Source: Verrucomicrobiota bacterium (GTDB lineage Bacteria; Verrucomicrobiota; Verrucomicrobiia; Palsa-1439). Taken from it: DNA of 51,556 bases. The stretch is from NCBI GenBank assembly GCA_003152315.1, contig PLZV01000019.1, forward strand, positions 1 to 51,556, read 5' to 3'. The position numbers and the translations under genes were made by a program. The notes under the pieces were generated by a model. That model was not told where the DNA came from. It did not search any database and saw only the letters and a list, made by a program, of their open reading frames with translations. This document shows positions 23,113 through 50,778 of the stretch, piece after piece (the stretch's first letter is position 1; the number at the start of each line of letters is the position of its first letter).

Positions 23113-23211
23113 AAACGAACCGGATTGAAATTCTCACCCTCTTGCTCCGCATCCAATTCCACCTCAACACGTTATCCCCTGTTTTCATGCTAAAATCAAT
23201 CCCGTTCGTTT
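23113..23211 (-). repeat. Structured inverted repeat, copy C
   Basis: The arms AAACGAACCGGATTGA (23113-23128) and TCAATCCCGTTCGTTT (23196-23211) pair over 16 bp with one mismatch across a 67-bp interior. The outer flanks CGTTTCCGTGCC (left) and CGCAGAAACACATG (right) match the flanks of copy B and, in reverse, of copy A. Confidence 0.75.
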
Positions 23212-23238: not shown

Positions 23239-24219
23239 TCATCCCCGCGATAATTGCATCGTCACCGGCGGCGGAACCTCCTCGCCCTCCCGCCGTCGCT
23301 GCAACCTCTCCAGCTGGTTCATCGCCCGATACAATTGCCGCTCCAACGCGCTCTCATATCGCAAAATCTTGTCCAGCACCGCCGCCGCCGGCAACACGTT
23401 CGCCAACTGCTGCGCCGTTTCCTCCTTGTCCTCCCGTTCCTCGTTCTGGTCGTTCAACACTTCGTACCCCGCCAGCCTCCTCTCGATATATTGCACCACC
23501 GCCCGCTGATGGTTCTCCTTCGATACCTCGGGACTCAACCCGTCCTTATTCGCCAAATATCTCTCGCGATACCCCAAGAGTTCCCGCGTCAGGTGATTCG
23601 GCGCATTGATGAATCGCTTCAGCAACTGCTCATAAGTCGCCTCCGTCAATTCACCCTCGCGCTCCACGTCCGTGCGGACCGACCGCAATACCGCCTTCAG
23701 GTAATCCAGCCCCTGCGTCGATTTCTCCATCTGCACCGCCGCGTCATGCATCTTGTCCAGAAACATCCAGAGCGGCAACGGCGCGCGGTCCGCCCGACGC
23801 CGCAGCCCGCCGTCCACGCTCAACACGATCTCCCCCGTCTCCGCCATCAACACCCGCCGCAACCGCCACTGCGCCGTCACGATCCGGTCCACCAGCATTT
23901 CCTCCACCGACCCCACCGGCGCCAGGCACTGCCAGCACTGCTCCCGCAAAGCCCGGAACTCATTCTCATGCTCCTGGATCCGCAACCCCCGTACCACCAC
24001 TTCCGTCGAGAGAATCCCATGCTTCACCGCATTCATCCGCGAAACCGCCTTCCCCTTCGCCGTCCGCGGCCCCGTCGACCGCAGCGTGTTCCTTCGATTC
24101 GCCGAAAAGACTTTCTCAGACACCGTGTAATTGACCACCTTCTTACTCGTCCGCGTAGAATGGGCGTCCCGCCCGTTTTTGATCGGTTCGGCTGTGGGAG
24201 TGACATCTTGGGGGATCAT
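23239..24219 (-). CDS. Uncharacterised paralogue-pair protein (STGPRT/NAVKHG family), copy 1
   Basis: 326 residues from MIPQDVTPT, the start conserved with the copy at 49529; an upstream ATG at 24231 is not conserved. The most conserved block is ANRRNTLRSTGPRTAKGKAV followed by SRMNAVKHGILSTEVVV, basic and probably nucleic-acid-binding (inference). After it come long helices: EEMLVDRIVTAQWRLRRVLM, then SVDGGLRRRADRAPLPLWMF. The C-terminus is a charged coiled helix ending LERLQRRREGEEV. Similar proteins of unknown function are, from memory, frequent and multicopy in Verrucomicrobia, Acidobacteria and Planctomycetes. Promoter and 3' structure are shared with copy 2, so gene and flanks move or are conserved as a unit. 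No function is proposed. Confidence 0.8.
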   Translation of the reverse strand: MIPQDVTPTAEPIKNGRDAHSTRTSKKVVNYTVSEKVFSANRRNTLRSTGPRTAKGKAVSRMNAVKHGILSTEVVVRGLRIQEHENEFRALREQCWQCLAPVGSVEEMLVDRIVTAQWRLRRVLMAETGEIVLSVDGGLRRRADRAPLPLWMFLDKMHDAAVQMEKSTQGLDYLKAVLRSVRTDVEREGELTEATYEQLLKRFINAPNHLTRELLGYRERYLANKDGLSPEVSKENHQRAVVQYIERRLAGYEVLNDQNEEREDKEETAQQLANVLPAAAVLDKILRYESALERQLYRAMNQLERLQRRREGEEVPPPVTMQLSRG

Positions 24220-24321
24220 GACTCTGTCCATCCTTTTGTAGGTTACCCACCTTTCGATTGTAGAAGTATAGCAACCGTCCTCCCAGCCAATCGCTTCTTC
24301 CGGTTAGTGAACATGCCCCGC

Positions 24322-41070: not shown

Positions 41071-41157
41071 GCGGGCATGTTCTCTAGGCGTGAGAATATG
41101 AGAGTGAGTTGCAACCAACCCCCACCCTCCTGCTTCGGTCAAGGCACGCAAAACAGC

Positions 41158-41191
41158 GGCGCGAAACCCTTCGGGCTTCGCGCCCTACAAT
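41158..41191. repeat. Dispersed palindrome GGCGCGAAACCC...CGCGCC
   Basis: A 34-bp unit with near-perfect arms GGCGCGAAACCC and GGGCTTCGCGCC around TTC, ending CTACAAT. It recurs in inverse orientation, with one change, at 50569-50602. Confidence 0.75.
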
Positions 41192-41273
41192 CGGACCAGC
41201 GAACAAGCGCGACAAGATGGCGCAGTTTCGTCGCTTCAGGGGAGAGAAAGCCCCCCCCATATACGTTTCTGCG

Positions 41274-41371
41274 AAACGAACCCACCGTTTTGCGATGATT
41301 CTTTTGATGTAACCACCAATGAGTACGGCAGTTGCGATGGAAACTCGTCAAAGAAATCGGTGGGTTCGTTT
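41274..41371 (+). repeat. Structured inverted repeat, copy A
   Basis: The 14-bp arms AAACGAACCCACCG (41274-41287) and CGGTGGGTTCGTTT (41358-41371) are perfectly complementary across a 70-bp interior. The interior shares TTGATGTAACC and AGTTGC with copy B at the same offsets. In copy B the inner arm bases are CCCGAAT/ATTCGGG instead of CCCACCG/CGGTGGG, a compensatory difference. Confidence 0.8.
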
Positions 41372-41419
41372 TGGAAAACGAACCCAATTTTAGGGGGTTT
41401 CGACGTGCTTTTACAACGA

Positions 41420-42739
41420 TTATCCCGATTTTTTGAGCGCCTTTTCGATCAGGTCGACGCAGCGGGTGGTGGCGCCGACGTTGGCCTGGATGACGCGGTG
41501 GGCGGTGGCGGCGATGGCTTGGCGGCGGTCGGGGTTTTCCAAAAGTTCCTCCACGGCGCGGCGCAGGGCGTCGCCGTCGGGGACCTGGACGCAGGCACCT
41601 GCGGCGATGAACTGGCGGGCGATGGCGCGGAAGTTCTGCATGTTGGGCCCGAAGATGACGGGATGACCGCTGGCGGCGGCTTCGACGATGTTCTGGCCGC
41701 CCTGCCCCACGAGGCTCTTGCCGACAAAGATGACCGTCGCGACCTTGTAAAACCATTTCAGTTCGCCCGTGGTGTTGACGATGAGGCAATCGTAGGGTTT
41801 GGCGGTCTGCTCGAGGTGCGAGTTGATCTCGGAGCGGAGCACGAATTTGATTTGTTTGCGGCGGGCAAGGTCCGCGACCTCGCGCGTGCGTTCGACGTGG
41901 CGCGGGACGAGGACGAGGAACAGGCGCGGGAATCTTACCTGCAGATCCGTGAAGACATTGAAGAGGATTTCCTCCTCGCCGGGGTGGGTGCTCCCCGCGA
42001 CCAGGATTGGTTGCGCCGGCGAGATGCTAATTTGCTTGAGCAATTGGACGGGATCGACGTTCTGCACATCGGCATGGGGCATGGAGACATCGTACTTCAT
42101 GTTGCCCGTCATGTGGACGCGGCCGCGGGGCACGCCGAGAGCTGCGAAGTTGTCGGCATCCTCCGGGCTTTGCGCGCAGACCAGGGAGAGGTTGTTGAAA
42201 ACCTCGGAGGAAAGTCCGCCCAGACGTTTGTAGCGCCGCTCGGAACGGAGGGACATGCGGCCGTTCACGAGAAACAAGGGCACGCCGCGGCGCGCGGCCA
42301 TCCAGATGTGGTTGGGCCACAACTCGGATTCCATGAGGACGATGAAGTCGGGCCGGATCAAGTTGTAGGCGCGGCGGACGGCCCAGGGGAAATCCTGCGG
42401 AAAGTAGAGCAGCTCGACTTCCTGCGGCAGGCGTTCGTAAGCGAGCGCGTAGCCCGTCGAAGTCGTGGTGGTCACGACGATGCGCAGGTCGGGAAACTTG
42501 CGCTGCAACGCGCCAATGAACAGGAGCGCGACGTTTACTTCGCCCACGCTCACCGCCTGGATCCAGCAGCGCGGTTCTTTCCTGGGAGCGAGTCGTTCAC
42601 GCAAGTCTGCGGAATAAAAACCGAAGCGTTGCCAGAAGTTCTCCCGGTACTTGCCGCGCTTCCACATTTTGTAGAGGAACAAGGGGCTCAACAGCACAAA
42701 GCCCAACGAGTACAATATTGTGTACAGAAGCCGAATCAC
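41420..42739 (-). CDS. waaA: 3-deoxy-D-manno-octulosonic acid (Kdo) transferase
   Basis: 439 residues from a GTG at 42739 (VIRLLYTILYSLGF). The frame is open far upstream, but that part is unlike the family. An N-terminal membrane segment anchors the GT30 enzyme on the cytoplasmic face. Recognisable blocks are CWIQAVSVGEVNVALLFIGA, TTTTSTGYALAYERLP, FIVLMESELWPNHIW with the catalytic Glu, NGRMSLRS, GNMKYDV, VAGSTHPGEEEI and LVGQGGQNIVEAAASGHPVI. It adds Kdo to lipid A precursor, indicating a lipopolysaccharide-bearing outer membrane. It diverges from the hybrid kinase gene; the shared upstream spacer is 42740-42934. Confidence 0.93.
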   Translation of the reverse strand: MIRLLYTILYSLGFVLLSPLFLYKMWKRGKYRENFWQRFGFYSADLRERLAPRKEPRCWIQAVSVGEVNVALLFIGALQRKFPDLRIVVTTTTSTGYALAYERLPQEVELLYFPQDFPWAVRRAYNLIRPDFIVLMESELWPNHIWMAARRGVPLFLVNGRMSLRSERRYKRLGGLSSEVFNNLSLVCAQSPEDADNFAALGVPRGRVHMTGNMKYDVSMPHADVQNVDPVQLLKQISISPAQPILVAGSTHPGEEEILFNVFTDLQVRFPRLFLVLVPRHVERTREVADLARRKQIKFVLRSEINSHLEQTAKPYDCLIVNTTGELKWFYKVATVIFVGKSLVGQGGQNIVEAAASGHPVIFGPNMQNFRAIARQFIAAGACVQVPDGDALRRAVEELLENPDRRQAIAATAHRVIQANVGATTRCVDLIEKALKKSG

Positions 42740-42934
42740 GGGGGGACAATAGCGAAATCGTCGCACGGTTGCGAACGCGATATTCCTACCAAATTCAGGT
42801 TCAATCTCCAGAAGCTCTCCCAGCGGACAAAATGGCACTGTTTCAAGCGCATCGGAGGGGCAAAAAAACACACCGAATTGGCCGAAATCACCCAGTTTCC
42901 GGTGTGGCACACGAGTTGCGCAATAAACAGGTTG

Positions 42935-45900
42935 ATGAACCGTGCCTCTACCCACACGCTCGAGCCGGTAGGCGCCGAGAACGGCCGGACAGAGGCGCAC
43001 TTTCGCTCACTGATTGAAAACACCACCGACATCATCACCATCCTGGAGGCTGACGGCAACATCCGCTACGAAAGCCCGTCCATCGAGCGCATTCTCGGCT
43101 ACAAGCCAGAGGAATTGATTGGGCGTAATGTTTTCGAGTTAATCCACCCTGACGATGTTGCCAGAATCCAAAAGATTTTTACCGAGGGCCTGATCCGGGC
43201 CGGCCGCATCGAATCCGGCGAGTATCGGTTCCGCCACAAGGACGGTTCATGGCGAGTTTTTGAAGGGATCGGTAAGAGCCTTCTTGAGGATCCCACCGTC
43301 CGGGGAGTCATCGTCAACTCCCGCGACATCACGGAGCGCAAGCGGATGGATAATGCGTTGCACAAGGTGCAGCAACAGCAACGCGCGCTTCTCGACAACA
43401 TTCCCGACCTGGCCTGGGTCAAAGACACACAGAGCCGATACATCGCCGCCAATGAAGCGTTCGCCGAGGCCCTGGGTTGCACGCCCGAAGAAATGGTCGG
43501 CAAGACCGATTTCGATTTTGTGCCTCGCGACCTGGCGGAACACTATACTGCCGACGACAAACAAGTGATGGAGCTGCGTCAGCGCAAGTACATCGAAGAA
43601 CCTTTTGTAGACGCCGCGGGGAACCGCATCTGGGTTGAAACAATCAAGTCCGCGGTCTTGAACGATCAGGGAGAGGTTGCCGGGACGACCGGTGTCGCCC
43701 GCGATATCACCAAGCGCAAGCAAATGGATCAAGCGCTGCGCACAAGCGAAGAGCGGTACCGGACCCTGTTCGAGACGATGCGGGAAGGATTCGCCTTGTG
43801 CGAGATCATCTGGGATGCGGACGGCAAGCCTTGTGATTACCGTTATTTAGATGTTAACCCGGCGTTTGAGAAGATCCTGGGCGTCACGCGCAGTCAGACG
43901 ATCGGCAAGACAGTGCGAGAAATCTTCCCGCAAGTGGAGGAGTATTGGATCGATATCTACGGCAAGGTCGCCCTCACCAGCCAGCCCACTCGATTTGAGC
44001 ATTATTTGCGCGCCGTGGACAAACACTTTGAGGTGGCTGCCTTCAGCCCGAAACGCGGCCAGTTTGCCGCGATCTTCTCGGACGTAACCGGGCGCAAGCA
44101 AAACGAGGAACGCCTCCGCCTCCAAAGCACGGCCCTGGAGGCCGCCGCAATCGGCATCGCCCTCACCGACAGCAAGGGAACGATCCTCTGGGTCAACCCG
44201 GCCTTCACGAAGTTGACCGGCTACACCGTCGCGGAAGCCATCGGCCAAAATATGCGGCTGCTGAAGTCGGGCAAGCACGATGAAGGTTTTTATCGCAACC
44301 TTTGGGAGACGGTGAATTCAGGCAAGGTCTGGCAGGGCGACATAATCAACCGCCGCAAAGACGGCAGCCTCTATGATGAAGGGATGACGATCACGCCCGT
44401 GCGCGACGAGCGCGGTGAAAGCACCTACTTCATCGCGATGAAGCAAGACATCACGGACCGCAAGCAGGCGGAAACGTCGCTGCGCGAGAGTGAAGAATTG
44501 TTCCGCTCGCTGAGCGTTTCCTCACCGCTGGGTATCTTTCTCACCGACATCCAGGGCCGATTGACATACGCCAACCCCCGCTGCCGTGAACTCTACGGCT
44601 TCACGCTGATGGAGAGCCAGAACGATGGGTGGACGCAATTCATCCATGTCGATGACCGCGAATGGGTCACCCGGCAATGGCAGGTATTCATCACCGACGG
44701 GATCGATTATTCCTGTGAGTATCGCGTCTGCCATCGCAATGGTAACGTCCTGTGCGTCCATGTGCGTGCCGGCCGCATGCAGTCAGAGCGCGGTGAGTCG
44801 ACGGGCTTCGTCGGGACCATCGAGGATGTTACGCTCCGCAAACGGTCAGAAGACGATCTGCGGGAAAGCAAACAGAAACTGGAGCACGCGCTGGAAGAGT
44901 TGCAGGAGGCCCAACAGCAAGTCATCCAGCAAGAACGCCTGCGGGCGCTGGGCACCATGGCCAGCGGCATTGCCCACGATTTTAACAACGCCCTGGCCGC
45001 CATCCTCGGCTTCACCGAACTCTTGATCTATCGTCCTGAAACCCTTGCCGACAAGGAAAAGACACTGCGCTTTCTCCAGATGATGAACACCGCGGCCAAG
45101 GATGCGGGCAACGTCGTCAACCGTCTGCGTGAGTTTTACCGCCAGCGCGAGGAAGGCGAAGTTTTTGTCCCGGTCGATCTCAACCGCCTCGCGGAAGACG
45201 CTGTCTCCCTCACCCAGCCGAAATGGAAGAACCAAGCGGAGGCCAACGGTATCGCCATTCACGTGGCCACCGAATTGGGCAACATTCCAACGGTCGACGG
45301 CAACGCCGCCGACCTGCGCGAGGCGCTCACTAACCTCATTTTTAACGCCGTTGACGCCATGCCCCAAGGCGGGACGATTACGTTACGCACCCGGCTCAAC
45401 AACTCCCGCGTCATTCTTGAGGTCATCGACACTGGCACGGGCATGACCGATGAGGTCCGAACCCGTTGTCTCGAACCGTTCTTCACCACCAAAGGCGATC
45501 GCGGTACGGGCCTTGGCCTGTCGATGGTCTACGGCATTCTCCAGCGCCACCAGGGCACCGTCGACATCCAATCGAAGCTGGGGAATGGTACGACATTCAT
45601 TCTTTCGTTGCCCATCGCCGTCAAACCACAACCGCCAAAGGAAACTGACTCCGCACCGTGCGTCCTTCGCCCGTTGCGTGTGCTGTTGGTGGATGACGAG
45701 GATCTTGTACGGCGAATTCTCAAAGAGTTTCTGCTGGGTGACAAGCACATCGTGGAGACCGCTGCCCACGGAAAGGAAGCCCTTGACAAATTCCAGCGCG
45801 CGGAGTTCGACGTCGTGATTCTTGACCGCGCGATGCCGGACATGAGCGGCGACCAAGTCGCTTTGTCCATCAAGCAACTCAAGCCAGAAACACCCATCAT

Positions 45901-46063
45901 CCTGCTCACCGGCTTCGGCTCCATGATGCAAGCCGCCGGCGAACAACCTCCTGGCGTGGATCTGGTTGTCAGTAAGCCCGTCACCATCCTCGGCCTGCGC
46001 GAAGCGGTGGCGAAGGTGGTCGCGAAGTATTCTCCCGCCACGCCCGCCGCGCTCAACGCGTGA
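42935..46063 (+). CDS. Hybrid sensor histidine kinase with five PAS domains
   Basis: 1042 residues from ATG 42935. The frame is open back to 41360, but that stretch is the antisense of waaA and is rejected. There are five PAS/PAC units of about 120 residues: 25-145, 148-268, 270-388, 390-515 and 515-640, each ending in a DIT-x-RK-type hinge. A coiled coil (LEHALEELQEAQQQVIQQER) precedes the HisKA domain with His681 in SGIAHDFNN. The ATPase domain has NLIFNAVDAMP, DTGTGM and GTGLGLSM. The C-terminal receiver has phosphoacceptor Asp964 (ILDRAMPD). There are no membrane segments, so it senses cytoplasmic redox, light or ligands. The response regulator gene converges just downstream. Confidence 0.93.
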   Translation: MNRASTHTLEPVGAENGRTEAHFRSLIENTTDIITILEADGNIRYESPSIERILGYKPEELIGRNVFELIHPDDVARIQKIFTEGLIRAGRIESGEYRFRHKDGSWRVFEGIGKSLLEDPTVRGVIVNSRDITERKRMDNALHKVQQQQRALLDNIPDLAWVKDTQSRYIAANEAFAEALGCTPEEMVGKTDFDFVPRDLAEHYTADDKQVMELRQRKYIEEPFVDAAGNRIWVETIKSAVLNDQGEVAGTTGVARDITKRKQMDQALRTSEERYRTLFETMREGFALCEIIWDADGKPCDYRYLDVNPAFEKILGVTRSQTIGKTVREIFPQVEEYWIDIYGKVALTSQPTRFEHYLRAVDKHFEVAAFSPKRGQFAAIFSDVTGRKQNEERLRLQSTALEAAAIGIALTDSKGTILWVNPAFTKLTGYTVAEAIGQNMRLLKSGKHDEGFYRNLWETVNSGKVWQGDIINRRKDGSLYDEGMTITPVRDERGESTYFIAMKQDITDRKQAETSLRESEELFRSLSVSSPLGIFLTDIQGRLTYANPRCRELYGFTLMESQNDGWTQFIHVDDREWVTRQWQVFITDGIDYSCEYRVCHRNGNVLCVHVRAGRMQSERGESTGFVGTIEDVTLRKRSEDDLRESKQKLEHALEELQEAQQQVIQQERLRALGTMASGIAHDFNNALAAILGFTELLIYRPETLADKEKTLRFLQMMNTAAKDAGNVVNRLREFYRQREEGEVFVPVDLNRLAEDAVSLTQPKWKNQAEANGIAIHVATELGNIPTVDGNAADLREALTNLIFNAVDAMPQGGTITLRTRLNNSRVILEVIDTGTGMTDEVRTRCLEPFFTTKGDRGTGLGLSMVYGILQRHQGTVDIQSKLGNGTTFILSLPIAVKPQPPKETDSAPCVLRPLRVLLVDDEDLVRRILKEFLLGDKHIVETAAHGKEALDKFQRAEFDVVILDRAMPDMSGDQVALSIKQLKPETPIILLTGFGSMMQAAGEQPPGVDLVVSKPVTILGLREAVAKVVAKYSPATPAALNA

Positions 46064-46100
46064 GGGTTTCCGTCCTTCTTTCCCGCGCGGCTGTCCGCCG

Positions 46101-46562
46101 CTACGGGTTCGCCTCCCGGGAAGCCCGCTCACGCATATCCCGGACAGCAAGGATGTACTGGTTCAGACGCTCTACATGGTCGGAGACGTGCGCCGTCTTA
46201 AACACCGCGCGAATGCGAATCAACAGTTCCTCCACCGCGAACGGTTTGCCCAGAAAATCATCAGCTCCCGCCTCCATGCATTCTTCGAGGCGACCCGCCG
46301 CCGTCAGGGACGTGATAATAATGACGGGGATGTTCCGAGTGTCCTTGCCCGCCCGGATCGCCTTGCAGAATGTCAGTCCATTCAACTTGGGCATGTTAAC
46401 GTCGAGCAGGATCAAATCCGGCATCAACGCCAGCGTCTTCTGCACCGCATCCTTGCCATCGACCGCCGTATAGACCAGCGTATTCTCGAGCACGAGAATG
46501 CTTTCCAATACCTCCCGCATCCCCGGATCGTCGTCGACCACCAAGACTTTTCGTTCGTTCAA
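46101..46562 (-). CDS. Response regulator (receiver with short C-terminal extension)
   Basis: 153 residues. Receiver: DDD at 10-12, phosphoacceptor Asp54 (ILLDVNMP), IITS and Lys in LGKPFA. The C-terminal 30 residues (HVERLNQYILAVRDMRERAS) form a helix but no known output domain. It is convergent with the hybrid kinase 38 bp away, so a functional pair is possible, though divergent partners are equally likely. The spacer 46563-46814 holds a CTTTAGCGACGGCGGATTC repeat and no gene. Confidence 0.9.
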   Translation of the reverse strand: MNERKVLVVDDDPGMREVLESILVLENTLVYTAVDGKDAVQKTLALMPDLILLDVNMPKLNGLTFCKAIRAGKDTRNIPVIIITSLTAAGRLEECMEAGADDFLGKPFAVEELLIRIRAVFKTAHVSDHVERLNQYILAVRDMRERASREANP

Positions 46563-46814
46563 ATGAATCCCCGCGCTCTCCAGTGCTTATACCGTCTCGC
46601 CGTCCCTCAAACAAGTTTTTCAAACCGAGCGGAGCGCGACTACCAGCCTCGCCAGCTTCTCCGCCATAGCTTTAGCGACGGCGGATTCCCCGTATGTCAA
46701 AGAACCGAGCGGACTATACACATCTCTTCAATGGCGTGTCCAGCAAAACTATCGATTGAAGATAATTGGGTGTTTCGCCGGCATATCTTCCTCCATCCTT
46801 CCAGAACTACCCGG

Positions 46815-47276
46815 CTACTTGGCGGGCGCGGCGGGTGGCGTCCACTCCTCCTTGTGACCGAAGCCGATTTGATTGTCGATCAACCGGATCCATGTGGTGT
46901 CGATTCGCCACATCGCGGTATTCACCAACTCTCGCGTCAGAATTGCGTTGGGCTGTTGTAGGAAGGGGAACCGCGCGCTGTAGATCTCCCACGCCTGCGC
47001 CCGCTCGGAAGCGCGGAGCGGGCGACAGATGCCGCGAAACTGGACGCCCCGGATCTCACGCCAGTGTTGACGGTCGAGTTGGATCGTGCCCGCGACGGAC
47101 GGATTTGCCAGCATCGCCTTCCCGTGACGTGTCGCCGGATCCGTCACCACCTGGAAACGCAACTCATCGTCGACGGCATAGAACAGCGCAGCCGCGTAGG
47201 GGCTGCCATCCGCTTCCATGACAGCCAGCGTCAGCACCTGGTGTTCGCGGAGGAACTTCAGCAATCGTTCGCGCAC
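46815..47276 (-). CDS. Pyridoxamine-5'-phosphate-oxidase-like FMN-binding split-barrel protein
   Basis: 153 residues. The split-barrel pattern of YhbP/PNPOx-like proteins is visible: LREHQVLTLAVMEADGSPYA at the start, then LRFQVVTDPATRHGKAMLAN and VAGTIQLDRQHWREIRGVQF, with a C-terminal WIRLIDNQIGFGHKEEW. The protein probably binds FMN or haem; the substrate is unknown. It follows the HPr-fusion gene by 1 bp in the same direction, so the two are cotranscribed. Confidence 0.82.
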   Translation of the reverse strand: MRERLLKFLREHQVLTLAVMEADGSPYAAALFYAVDDELRFQVVTDPATRHGKAMLANPSVAGTIQLDRQHWREIRGVQFRGICRPLRASERAQAWEIYSARFPFLQQPNAILTRELVNTAMWRIDTTWIRLIDNQIGFGHKEEWTPPAAPAK

Positions 47277-47277
47277 C

Positions 47278-47907
47278 TCAATCTTGCAATGCCTCGTTTG
47301 CCAGCGGCTGCTTTGTCAGCAATTCTGCAAGCATCTTCAACGCTTGCTTGGCTTGGGAGCCGGTGGCGATGAACTCCAGTGTGTCGCCGAGTATCGTTCC
47401 CACGGACAGCAAGCCGAGGATGGATCGCACGTTCATGTAGGGGCGTCCTTCCAGCACGAAATTGTAGTACAGCATGCCTTCCCGATGCACGTAAATGTCG
47501 CAATCGAACTTCGCAGCGAGACCGGCCACGGCGGAGGCAGGTCGCAGATGCAGCCCATCCTTGTTCTGAATGGTCACCAGCACTCTCTCGAAGCCGTTCC
47601 GCTCCAGGGATTCACTTTCCGCACGCCAGATGTGGGCGTACTTCTGGCACCATTCCTCGGCTGCTGAAGTCTTGCCAATGTCCCGACCCTCTTCCATGGA
47701 GCGAAGGAACTTGTGCTTCTCGATCTCCTGCCGCTGCGCTAGATTGTCCCTTCGTAGCTTCTCGTTCCGCCAGTCTTTGGCGTAATTCTGTACGAAATCG
47801 GCAATCGCCTCCTCAATGGTCACTTCGGTCCCGCGTCTTAGCGAAAGGTAATACTTGTGCTCCTCGATGGCTTTCAGCTCGGTGGCGGTGAGGTTGGTCC
47901 CGTTCAT
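47278..47907 (-). CDS. HPr-domain protein with duplicated N-terminal module
   Basis: 209 residues from MNGTNLTA. Residues of about 107-195 form an HPr-like domain with the phosphoacceptor His120 in GLHLRPASAVAGLA and the later segment NVRSILGLLSVG. The N-terminus holds two related units of about 33 residues (14-46 and 63-95) sharing HKxxLS-type, A..FVQNYAKDWR / A..WCQKYAHIWR sequence, an internal duplication I do not recognise as a named domain. The serine-46-type region (NVRSILGL) is present, so both HPr phosphorylation sites may exist. It may be a regulatory carrier acting with the HTH-PTS IIA protein at 9641 (inference). Confidence 0.82.
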   Translation of the reverse strand: MNGTNLTATELKAIEEHKYYLSLRRGTEVTIEEAIADFVQNYAKDWRNEKLRRDNLAQRQEIEKHKFLRSMEEGRDIGKTSAAEEWCQKYAHIWRAESESLERNGFERVLVTIQNKDGLHLRPASAVAGLAAKFDCDIYVHREGMLYYNFVLEGRPYMNVRSILGLLSVGTILGDTLEFIATGSQAKQALKMLAELLTKQPLANEALQD

Positions 47908-48010
47908 TTTCAATCCCCCGGCTTACTCCGAATCCACAGCGATACCCACTGGCCTGAAAAGACCCGGAAACTCAATCGGCACACACATGATCTGGTCAGT
48001 CCTGCGCCGA

Positions 48011-48436
48011 TCAGGCCAGTTTCTTCAAAGTGTCTGTCGCTTTCTTGGCGTCCTCAGCAGTGTCGAGCGCCAGATAGCAGACGAATTTCGTCCCGACCCC
48101 GGCCGCCGAAAGACCACGCAGATTGATGCCCGCCCCGGACAACGCCTTCGCCATCTTCGCGCCCAAGCCCGGCTTGTCTATTCCCTCGATCCGCAAGGAG
48201 TGCAGGCTGCCGGTCCTCAGAAAACCTGCGGCCTCGGCGGCCTTCACCTGCTTCGCCCCTTTCAAAGGGGTGACGAACACGACACCCTTGCCGGGTCGCT
48301 CGGGCGCCCGACGAGCGATGACGAATTCCAAATTGGATCCCGCCGCCGTCAGCGCTGCCAACTTTTCCGCCAGGCCGCCTACCCGGTCCTTAATGCTTAC
48401 CGCCCACACATCCACCGGGGTCACTTTAAGTTTCAT
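48011..48436 (-). CDS. ACT-domain protein (two ACT modules)
   Basis: 141 residues in two similar halves. First half: VWAVSIKDRVGGLAEKLAAL and EFVIARRAPE. Second half: LRIEGIDKPGLGAKMAKALS and GINLRGLSAAGVG. ACT modules bind amino acids or related small ligands. There is no enzymatic domain, so it is a stand-alone sensor or regulator. An A/G-rich ribosome site (AGGAGGGCGG) precedes the ATG. Confidence 0.87.
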   Translation of the reverse strand: MKLKVTPVDVWAVSIKDRVGGLAEKLAALTAAGSNLEFVIARRAPERPGKGVVFVTPLKGAKQVKAAEAAGFLRTGSLHSLRIEGIDKPGLGAKMAKALSGAGINLRGLSAAGVGTKFVCYLALDTAEDAKKATDTLKKLA

Positions 48437-48496
48437 AACCGCCCTCCTCCTGGTTGGTTTCGTATTCTCCCGCGATCAGCTCTTGTCTATCGACGT

Positions 48497-48940
48497 CTAC
48501 CGCGCCAAATGTGATTGCGATTTCCACACCCTCCCCAGTATCTGCAGCGTTTCGGGTTGGAGCGTCTTCTCGATCAGGGGAAACACCGTCCGCTCCTCCT
48601 CACTGAAGTGGGCGCGACAGGCGTCCAGCGCCACCTTCAGTTGGGTGCGGGCTTTTTGAAGATCCTTGATCGCTTCCACTTTTTTCAGAAGCACATCAAT
48701 TTCCTGATGATCGTGGTGCAAACGGGTCAGGTGGTTTTTCTGATGGAGGATATGATCCAGGGCGATATATGCCAAATCCGTTTCCGCCCCCCCGTGGTCG
48801 TGAAGCGGTGCTTCCAGCAGACGGCACAACAACCCGATCTCTTCCACGGTCTTGACGCCGGGCAACGCGTGTTCCACCTGGTCGAACAGCATCAGGAACA
48901 CGCGGTGCTCGGCCACTAACCCATCGATAATCGTCATCAA
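48497..48940 (-). CDS. Hemerythrin-like domain protein
   Basis: 147 residues, all helical, with the di-iron ligand set of the hemerythrin HHE family: VAEHRVFLMLFDQVEH, LHDHGGAETDLAY, LTRLHHDHQEI and AHFSEEERTVFPLIE. It may bind oxygen or nitric oxide or store iron. Same strand as the ACT and HPr genes, but separated by 60 bp. Confidence 0.87.
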   Translation of the reverse strand: MMTIIDGLVAEHRVFLMLFDQVEHALPGVKTVEEIGLLCRLLEAPLHDHGGAETDLAYIALDHILHQKNHLTRLHHDHQEIDVLLKKVEAIKDLQKARTQLKVALDACRAHFSEEERTVFPLIEKTLQPETLQILGRVWKSQSHLAR

Positions 48941-48991
48941 ATCAATCCCAATCGTCGCGCCCGCTAACTCAACTCTGGCACTCGGGGCGCA

Positions 48992-49216
48992 CTACTGCTT
49001 CTGCGCTGCCTTGAGCTTTTTCCAACGCGCCCGCTGGGCGGCAGCGATTCTCGCACGGCCTGCCTTGGAGAATCTCGGCTTGCGTCGGCCCGTCGTAAAG
49101 ACCGTCGTCCGAATTCCGCCGAGCGCCTTGACCGCGATATCGATCTGGCCCAGTTCGGCGGCAACCGCCAGCCGCCGTTCGCGCAACAGCTTCACCGCAT
49201 CTGTGTAAATTTTCAT
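48992..49216 (-). CDS. Small basic protein (hypothetical)
   Basis: 74 residues after GGCGAGGCAATC. The N-terminus MKIYTDAVKLLRERRLAVAA is a helix. The C-terminus KPRFSKAGRARIAAAQRARW followed by KKLKAAQKQ is strongly basic and resembles a short motif seen at the end of many small proteins in these phyla (from memory). It is a possible nucleic-acid-binding protein. No function is claimed. Confidence 0.65.
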   Translation of the reverse strand: MKIYTDAVKLLRERRLAVAAELGQIDIAVKALGGIRTTVFTTGRRKPRFSKAGRARIAAAQRARWKKLKAAQKQ

Positions 49217-49304
49217 GATTGCCTCGCCTTGTTGGTTGTCCCATCTCCCGCGCCCCTGATGCTAACTCGCCGCCGCTGATTGTCAATTCCTCCGTTTTCC
49301 GGCC
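49217..49304. other. Spacer before the inverted-repeat structure
   Basis: The gene-poor stretch 49217-49528 consists of this spacer, the structured repeat 49305-49401, its right flank, and a CGCCAAAGCCTTGGCGACGG repeat near 49436. No gene is seen. Confidence 0.45.
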
Positions 49305-49401
49305 AAACGAACCCGAATCACTTTTCCAGAAGTTCATTTGCAACTCTCATATGGATACAGGGTTACATCAATAGTCGCATCACTATAATTCGGGTTCGTT
49401 T
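49305..49401 (-). repeat. Structured inverted repeat, copy B
   Basis: Perfect 14-bp arms AAACGAACCCGAAT (49305-49318) and ATTCGGGTTCGTTT (49388-49401) around 69 bp. On the minus strand the interior contains TTGATGTAACC and AGTTGC at the same distances from the arm as in copy A. Confidence 0.8.
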
Positions 49402-49528: not shown

Positions 49529-50542
49529 TCATCCCCGCGATAACTGCATCGTCACCGGCGGGGGAACGTCCTCACCCTCGCGCCGACGCTGCAACCGCTC
49601 GAGCTGGTTCATCGCCCGATACAGCTGCCGCTCCAATGCATTTTCATACCGCAAAATCTTGTCCAGCACCGGCGCGGATGGCAACACATTCGCCAACTGC
49701 CGCGCCGTTTCCTCCTTGTCCTCTCGGTCCTCGCTCCGGCTGCTCAATTCCTCATACTCAGCCAGTTTCCTCTCGATGTACTGCAGTACCGCCCGCCGAT
49801 GATTGTCCTTCAACTCTTCGGGACTCAACCCATCGGCGTTCGCCGTCATCCTCTCGCGATACCCCAAAAAGTTCCGCGTCAGGTAATTCGGTTCGTTGAT
49901 AAATCGCCTCAGCAACTGATCACAAGCAGCCTGCGTCAATTCACCGTCCCGCTCCACGTCCTCGCGGACCGACCTCACGACCGCCCTCAGGTAATCCAGC
50001 CCCTGCGTCGACTTCTCCATCTGCACCGCCGCGTCATGCAACTGGTCCACGAATATCCCCAGCGGCAGCGGCGCGCGGTCCGCCCGACGCCGCAACCCGC
50101 CGTCCACGCTCAACACGATCTCCCCCGTCTCCGCCATCAACGCCCGCCGCAACCGCCACTGCGCCGTCACGATCCGGTCCACGAGCATTTCCTCCATCGG
50201 CCCCTTCGGTGCCAGGCTCCTCCAGCACCGCTCCCGCAACCCCCGAAACTCTTCCTCATGCTCCTGGATTCGCAACCCCTTCACCACCACCTCCGTCGAA
50301 AGAATCCCGTGTTTCACCGCATTCATCCGCGTAACCGCCTTCCCTTCCGGCGTGCGCGGCCCCGTGGACCTCCGCGCATTCCTCCGATTCGAAGCCCTTG
50401 ATTTCTCGGACGCCGTATAGGTCCTGCCGCGTGTCTCTTTTCGCGGCGAAACAGCAACTTGGCCTTCGTAGCGTCCTCGCGAAGTAGGCTCCGCAGTTTG
50501 CTTCACTAACTCCGTGGTGGGGTTGACATCATTGGGAATCAT
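49529..50542 (-). CDS. Uncharacterised paralogue-pair protein (STGPRT/NAVKHG family), copy 2
   Basis: 337 residues from MIPNDVNPTTE. It is paralogous over its whole length to the protein at 23239-24219, with the N-terminal 45 residues most diverged (extra RGRYEGQVAVSPRKETRGRT). It keeps SNRRNARRSTGPRTPEGKAV, SRMNAVKHGILSTEVVV, EEMLVDRIVTAQWRLRRALM and SVDGGLRRRADRAPLPLGIF. The C-terminal LERLQRRREGEDVPPPVTMQ is almost unchanged. Such near-complete conservation between two loci, including promoter and 3' structure, argues that both are expressed or were recently duplicated. No catalytic motif is recognised. Confidence 0.8.
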   Translation of the reverse strand: MIPNDVNPTTELVKQTAEPTSRGRYEGQVAVSPRKETRGRTYTASEKSRASNRRNARRSTGPRTPEGKAVTRMNAVKHGILSTEVVVKGLRIQEHEEEFRGLRERCWRSLAPKGPMEEMLVDRIVTAQWRLRRALMAETGEIVLSVDGGLRRRADRAPLPLGIFVDQLHDAAVQMEKSTQGLDYLRAVVRSVREDVERDGELTQAACDQLLRRFINEPNYLTRNFLGYRERMTANADGLSPEELKDNHRRAVLQYIERKLAEYEELSSRSEDREDKEETARQLANVLPSAPVLDKILRYENALERQLYRAMNQLERLQRRREGEDVPPPVTMQLSRG

Positions 50543-50696: not shown

Positions 50697-50725
50697 ACTA
50701 TACAGCTATCGCAATCCGATGTCTA
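50697..50725 (-). promoter_or_regulatory. Conserved promoter of the paralogue element, copy 2
   Basis: On the minus strand: -35 TAGACA (50720-50725), a 17-bp spacer and -10 TATAGT (50697-50702). The hexamers and spacing are identical to 24322-24350. Confidence 0.75.
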
Positions 50726-50778
50726 GAAGAAATATCGCTACCCGATTCCCTGCCTGTCACCCCGGGTTCGGTTGTAGT

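Follow-up and report, generated by a model that had tools for sequence, protein, structure and literature searches.

A family of REPIN-like inverted-repeat elements downstream of promoter-like sequences in a peat-bog member of the Verrucomicrobiota

Inverted-repeat elements and their neighbours in the window

The window, the whole 51,556-nt stretch of DNA analysed here, comprises positions 1 to 51,556 of contig PLZV01000019.1 (assembly GCA_003152315.1) from a peat-bog bacterium of the Verrucomicrobiota. It holds three copies of a short, self-complementary DNA module that occurs in more than 100 copies, those of the nearest relatives included. One, designated copy A, is located at kdtA, and the other two follow genes for the paralogous proteins P0001 and P0002, both of which have an element-type promoter upstream and encode the conserved motif STGPRTxxGKAxxRMNAVKHG. 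The features are listed below (+, forward strand; -, reverse strand).

23113..23211, -: 99-bp element, arm haplotype GGATT, C-type interior
23239..24231, -: P0001, 330-aa protein of the STGPRTxxGKAxxRMNAVKHG family; element within about 30 nt after the stop codon
24322..24351, -: promoter-like sequence CTAGACATCGTATTACGATAGTGGTATAGT upstream of P0001
41041..41070, +: copy A promoter-like sequence CTGGACA-N17-TATGGT, reading toward the element (family weight matrix; 0.74 identity to its G002 orthologue)
41071..41264, +: copy A putative transcribed leader; the first part aligns with G002, the remainder does not
41265..41277, +: copy A small hairpin GTTTC-TGC-GAAAC, overlapping the first arm
41274..41371, +: copy A, 98-bp inverted-repeat element at the kdtA site, arm haplotype CACCG, D-type interior
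41274..41287, +: copy A arm 1, AAACGAACCCACCG
41288..41357, +: copy A interior, 70 nt, variable, with half-sites TTGATGTAAC and AGTTGC
41358..41371, +: copy A arm 2, CGGTGGGTTCGTTT
41376..41385, +: copy A third arm, AAACGAACCC, after TGGA; a tight hairpin with arm 2 is possible
49305..49401, -: 97-bp element, arm haplotype CGAAT
49529..50542, -: P0002, P0001 paralogue, 77% identical; element 127 nt after the stop
50697..50726, -: promoter-like sequence CTAGACATCGGATTGCGATAGCTGTATAGT upstream of P0002

The three copies had been reported in a first-pass annotation, whose coordinates (23113-23211, 41274-41371 and 49305-49401) were correct. As it described, the inner arms are complementary in copy A (CCCACCG/CGGTGGG) and in the 49305-49401 copy (CCCGAAT/ATTCGGG), and those of the 23113-23211 copy (CGGATTGA/TCAATCC) differ by one mismatch, which is C-C. 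The half-sites TTGATGTAAC (31-40) and AGTTGC (57-62) likewise lie at identical offsets in copy A (+) and the 49305 copy (-). The small hairpins said to flank the whole element exist as GTTTC-TGC-GAAAC, but on one side only. On the other side a third arm was found 4-5 nt beyond arm 2 in about half of the copies collected below (99/178). It has the same inner bases as arms 1 and 2 in 73 of these 99, making an alternative tight hairpin possible, and is absent from most class II copies.

Copy number, length and covarying arms

There were 132 matches to the pattern AAACGAACC-N70..90-GGTTCGTTT in G000, the 4.89-Mb genome that contains the window, and none to its backwards-read control, which agreed with the earlier judgement that these are not chance repeats. 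With each arm one base shorter, 142 matches were obtained in G000 and 73 in the congener G002. Arms of the AAACGAACC/GGTTCGTTT type gave no match in the congener G001 (Verrucomicrobia bacterium isolate bog_1451) or in 36 further relatives searched, and phylum-wide searches with two patterns, in 388 genomes each, returned only single chance-like matches outside the genus. The elements of G001 are of equal size and have AAACAAAGCC/GGCTTTGTTT arms. Further covarying copies are thus present in two congeners, where the arms still pair.

From the fetched G000 and G002 sequence, 178 oriented copies were collected, mostly intergenic and kilobases apart. Their length was 97, 98 or 99 bp in 79, 52 and 42 copies, respectively (173/178). 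This fixed length is kept despite a median difference between interiors of 55-59% of positions (about 30% between nearest neighbours). The palindromes almost certainly do not encode a short peptide; an open frame, seen by eye, crosses several D-type copies, but related copies had no codon periodicity (2008/1758/2048; 330/256/318; 855/720/716) and lengths of 97, 98 and 99 break the reading frame. In G002, five loci (L207, L264, L266, L272 and L293) hold truncated units that end in a single arm, GCGAAACGAACCCCCCAGTTAAG or similar. A lone AAACAAAGCCAA...TTGGCTTTGTTT palindrome within a longer palindrome in a Chitinophaga sp. MAG (L248:3218-3310) is probably unrelated.

Positions 2-7 of the arm were invariant on both sides in all 178 copies. 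Five inner-arm haplotypes (CACCG, GGATT, CATTT, CGAWT and CAAWT) occur within genomes, the left arm matching the right, and a tree of the interiors requires at least 43 changes of haplotype. Between species the arms occur as AAACGAACCC, AAACGAAGCC, AAACAAAGCC and AAACAAACCC, each with a matching partner. Covariation was computed on 34 distinct arm pairs, with shuffled and slid arms as controls. In this set 93.7% of cells paired (shuffled, 83.9%), double-change cells numbered 45 compared to 12.9 in shuffles, and the covariation score was 0.274 (shuffled, 0.103; slid, at most 0.058). Pairs 5 and 8 changed from G-C to A-T and from C-G to G-C with zero broken cells.

Arm covariation is therefore real, also between species, but it does not by itself prove selection for structure, as had been proposed from the compensatory changes. 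Mismatches at arm positions 2-14 comprised 2 G-T, 3 A-C and 40 others; they had no G-U excess on either strand, which counts against the reading we prefer below. The inner arms also switch as whole 5-base haplotypes, and template switching or conversion in palindromic DNA would yield such block changes (PMC8794818). Because G-U excess is lacking and changes come in blocks, compensation alone is no proof of RNA, and the block form is as compatible with template switching or conversion as with RNA selection.

The arms alone pair across all subfamilies, and the interiors have no consistent RNA structure. The earlier description of a conserved core on a long helix was for this reason too strong, although its pairing arms stand. 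A search of Rfam 15 gave no credible match for the window at the gathering score or for eight loci at a relaxed threshold. Both results count against the preferred reading.

Promoter-like sequences and conserved sites

Upstream of the elements lies a conserved sigma-70-like promoter, GATAATTTTGCTGGACA-N17-TATAGT (consensus gATaaTTtTgCTGGACAtgGtgTtccGggAggGGTATAGTcGG), unnoticed in the first-pass annotation. A leave-one-out weight matrix was run over 450 bp upstream, on the strand reading TTTCTGCG-AAACGAACC. This detected promoter-like sequence for 138 of 173 copies, confined to a single strand and side; the three controls (the opposite strand of the same side, and both strands of the other side) gave 0/173 each. 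The distance from promoter to element was 107-413 nt (median, 186 nt), and the leader between them is variable. In 40 of 140 cases the promoter is followed by GTTCTTTGA, which we call boxA-like because it presumably resembles the established consensus; of 27 exact cases, 22 had it at a fixed offset. Among 236 genomes of the class, the promoter and boxA pattern was found in the three congeners only. Leaders of many units (e.g., L101, L083 and L058) are filled by other repeat modules, such as CGCCTTCGCCAAGGCTACGGCGGACG and AACGCTCAACATCCAACG.

The fetched sequence contained 66 strong promoter sites. An arm followed in 55 by a first count, and 9 of the remaining 11 precede listed elements of the GGATT type or similar, outside that count's arm pattern. 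Two sites were without an element, one of them at window position 46743. Here (46697-46743, -) the promoter and boxA-like GTTCTTTGA are followed by a response-regulator-like gene. The one-sided promoter-like sequence points to transcription of the copies. An RNA reading, for which compensation alone was insufficient, thus gains support from the sequence upstream of most copies. It is very unlikely that the elements are bidirectional terminators or 3'-UTR stabilisers of neighbouring genes, as strong stems near some gene ends (e.g., kdtA) might suggest, because the loop is about 70 nt long, there is no adjoining T-run, and the elements have promoter-like sequence of their own that reads into them.

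Sites were compared between G000 and G002 by aligning the flanks of G002 elements to G000 and counting an element within 900 bp. Both genomes had an element at 31 of 35 syntenic anchors, which overstates the genome-wide share since the G000 stretches were chosen for holding elements; the agreement in direction, which is unbiased, was complete (31/31). The interiors at shared anchors mostly differed about as much as randomly paired ones and mostly belonged to unrelated subfamilies, and the arm haplotypes differed. Around window position 41274, orthology between the two genomes covers kdtA, the promoter and the beginning of the leader, but not the module: G000 has a D-type element with CACCG arms here, G002 a C-type element with GGATT arms. 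A search for empty sites in the fetched sequence of G000 and G002 found none.

That loci are conserved between species would also suit host regulatory leader RNAs, in which a 5' leader made up of promoter, boxA and palindrome would regulate the following gene through alternative arm1:arm2 and arm2:arm3 hairpins, similar to an attenuator or to the Brt RNAs of Bartonella. The third arm that matches arms 1 and 2 in 73/99 copies across a fixed 4-5 nt loop agrees with this, as does a co-directional neighbour gene in about two-thirds of cases (111 versus 43 by a crude gene caller; 16 versus 8 when codon phase was used). As gene calling was unreliable, orientation was judged mainly from the codon phase of substitutions. 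About one-third of the copies, however, including the one at kdtA in the window, face a convergent gene at its 3' end. In addition, the class II copies mostly do without the third arm, and no U-run stands right after the arm2:arm3 hairpin in the listed sequences. We consider leader RNAs an unlikely explanation. In the window, a single open frame (41360-46063, +) joins a kdtA-antisense stretch to a real multi-PAS hybrid histidine kinase, whose true start is probably near 43000.

A linked protein family and the nature of the units

An arm followed the stop codon in 14 of 14 close P0001 homologues from seven genomes, other genera and families included, at a distance of 15-220 bp and mostly preceded by TTTNTGCG. 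The linkage between the P0001 family and the element is strong. P0001 and P0002 matched no Pfam, NCBIfam or PHROG family, and P0001 has no recognised domain. Its predicted fold is helical with middling confidence (mean pLDDT 67); no transposase fold was found in it, and it had no PDB match at E 0.001. Lacking a recognised domain, a solved relative and a confident fold, P0001 is tied to a partner role by its linkage, from which we infer that a P0001-family protein is a candidate partner of the elements. There are only 4 P0001-type genes to about 140 copies, which counts against the preferred reading.

In terms of known repeats, the elements have the terminal inverted repeats and absence of coding capacity of MITEs, and the inverted conserved ends with a length-constrained, hairpin-forming variable spacer of REP/REPIN sequences. 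REPINs are REP doublets that form hairpins (Bertels and Rainey 2011, PMC3116915), and the likeness extends to two invariant inverted ends, a size of about 100 bp, many intergenic copies and common compensatory changes (PMC3116915). These likenesses could indicate an ordinary DNA-level REPIN or MITE moved by a Y1 transposase, for which the promoter and P0001 would be mere preferred neighbours and template switching would keep the arms matched. Y1_Tnp genes are present in all three congeners, several in G000 lie less than 1.5 kb from an element, and the arms do change block-wise. Against this, no GTAG or CGTC tag lies beside the arms (GTAG within 20 nt on the 5' side, 1/178; CTAC, 21, apparently TTCTAC variants of TTCTGC), G002 has 73 copies but one Y1 gene, three Y1 genes have unrelated terminal repeats of their own, and the promoter association is 138/173 versus 0. 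We judge this explanation to be quite improbable. The Y1 transposase was a weak candidate for the partner of the elements. The three Y1 genes with repeats of their own, at L208, L210 and L212, lie between inverted repeats GTCAAnGCTTGACTCTTGACA about 1 kb apart that are unrelated to the element arms.

With the GTAG tag absent and no matching RAYT found, we do not claim REPIN membership. The elements further differ from REPINs in the upstream promoter and boxA, the third arm, the linkage to a helical non-Y1 protein family, and the exchange of module type at conserved sites. The Correia repeat enclosed elements of Neisseria, likewise short and with inverted ends, carry or generate promoters and can be bound by RNase III when folded as hairpins (PMC2649163); here, in contrast, the promoter lies 107-413 nt beyond the inverted repeat, always on the same side, and covariation of the ends is seen across copies and species. 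The Brt RNAs come from intergenic genes that are restricted to one genus, occur in multiple copies beside other genes and have a stable predicted structure; they are nine highly similar RNAs of 194-203 nt upstream of HTH genes (PMC5387305), whereas the present family, known from sequence alone, has more than 100 copies with unrelated bodies and varied neighbours. Integron attC sites share the imperfect palindromes with matched variable arms, but the present copies form neither cassette arrays nor other closely spaced arrays. The element ends, we take it, do not fit the attC core consensus.

The elements are best read as a genus-level family of REPIN-like modules. Their copy number, fixed length, covarying arms, one-sided promoter-like sequence, linkage to P0001, and conserved place and direction with an exchanged module are all observed. 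On this basis we favour, at somewhat better than even, the reading that they are REPIN-like and make up the 3' part of dedicated transcription units, for which there is a candidate partner protein. Such a unit would consist of a sigma-70-like promoter, often a boxA-like antitermination signal, a variable leader, TTTCTGCG, arm 1, a variable body of about 70 nt and arm 2, closed in about half of the copies by the third arm; a larger form would have a P0001-family gene in place of the variable leader. The units are presumably transcribed, with the closing stem forming in the transcript or in single-stranded DNA, and may replicate, or once have replicated, as REPIN-like genomic elements. The small units may be derivatives of, or dependants on, the P0001-encoding form, and a helical P0001-type protein may recognise the TGCGAAAC-arm end (candidate target, TTTCTGCGAAACGAACCC). 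At an existing site the module would be replaced by other copies through conversion, template switching or re-insertion, and such replacement would keep both arms matched.

A bolder form of this reading, which we put forward tentatively and as rather doubtful, places fixed promoters before interchangeable RNA modules of about 98 nt. Promoter, place and direction would be kept, and the module with both its arms would move between roughly a hundred chromosomal sites, in an exchange possibly driven by a P0001-family protein that acts on the transcript or on the TGCGAAAC-arm end.

The family carries a caution, that covarying arms in repeats need not mean RNA selection. How perfect inverted repeats are kept up is a standing question for hairpins and RNA stems, and arms that switch jointly, together with module exchange at conserved sites, would, if confirmed, offer a direct test of how they stay perfect. 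If confirmed, REPIN-like repeats would here be the active end of more than 100 dedicated transcription units, not passive hairpins, and their partner protein would lie outside the known REP transposases.
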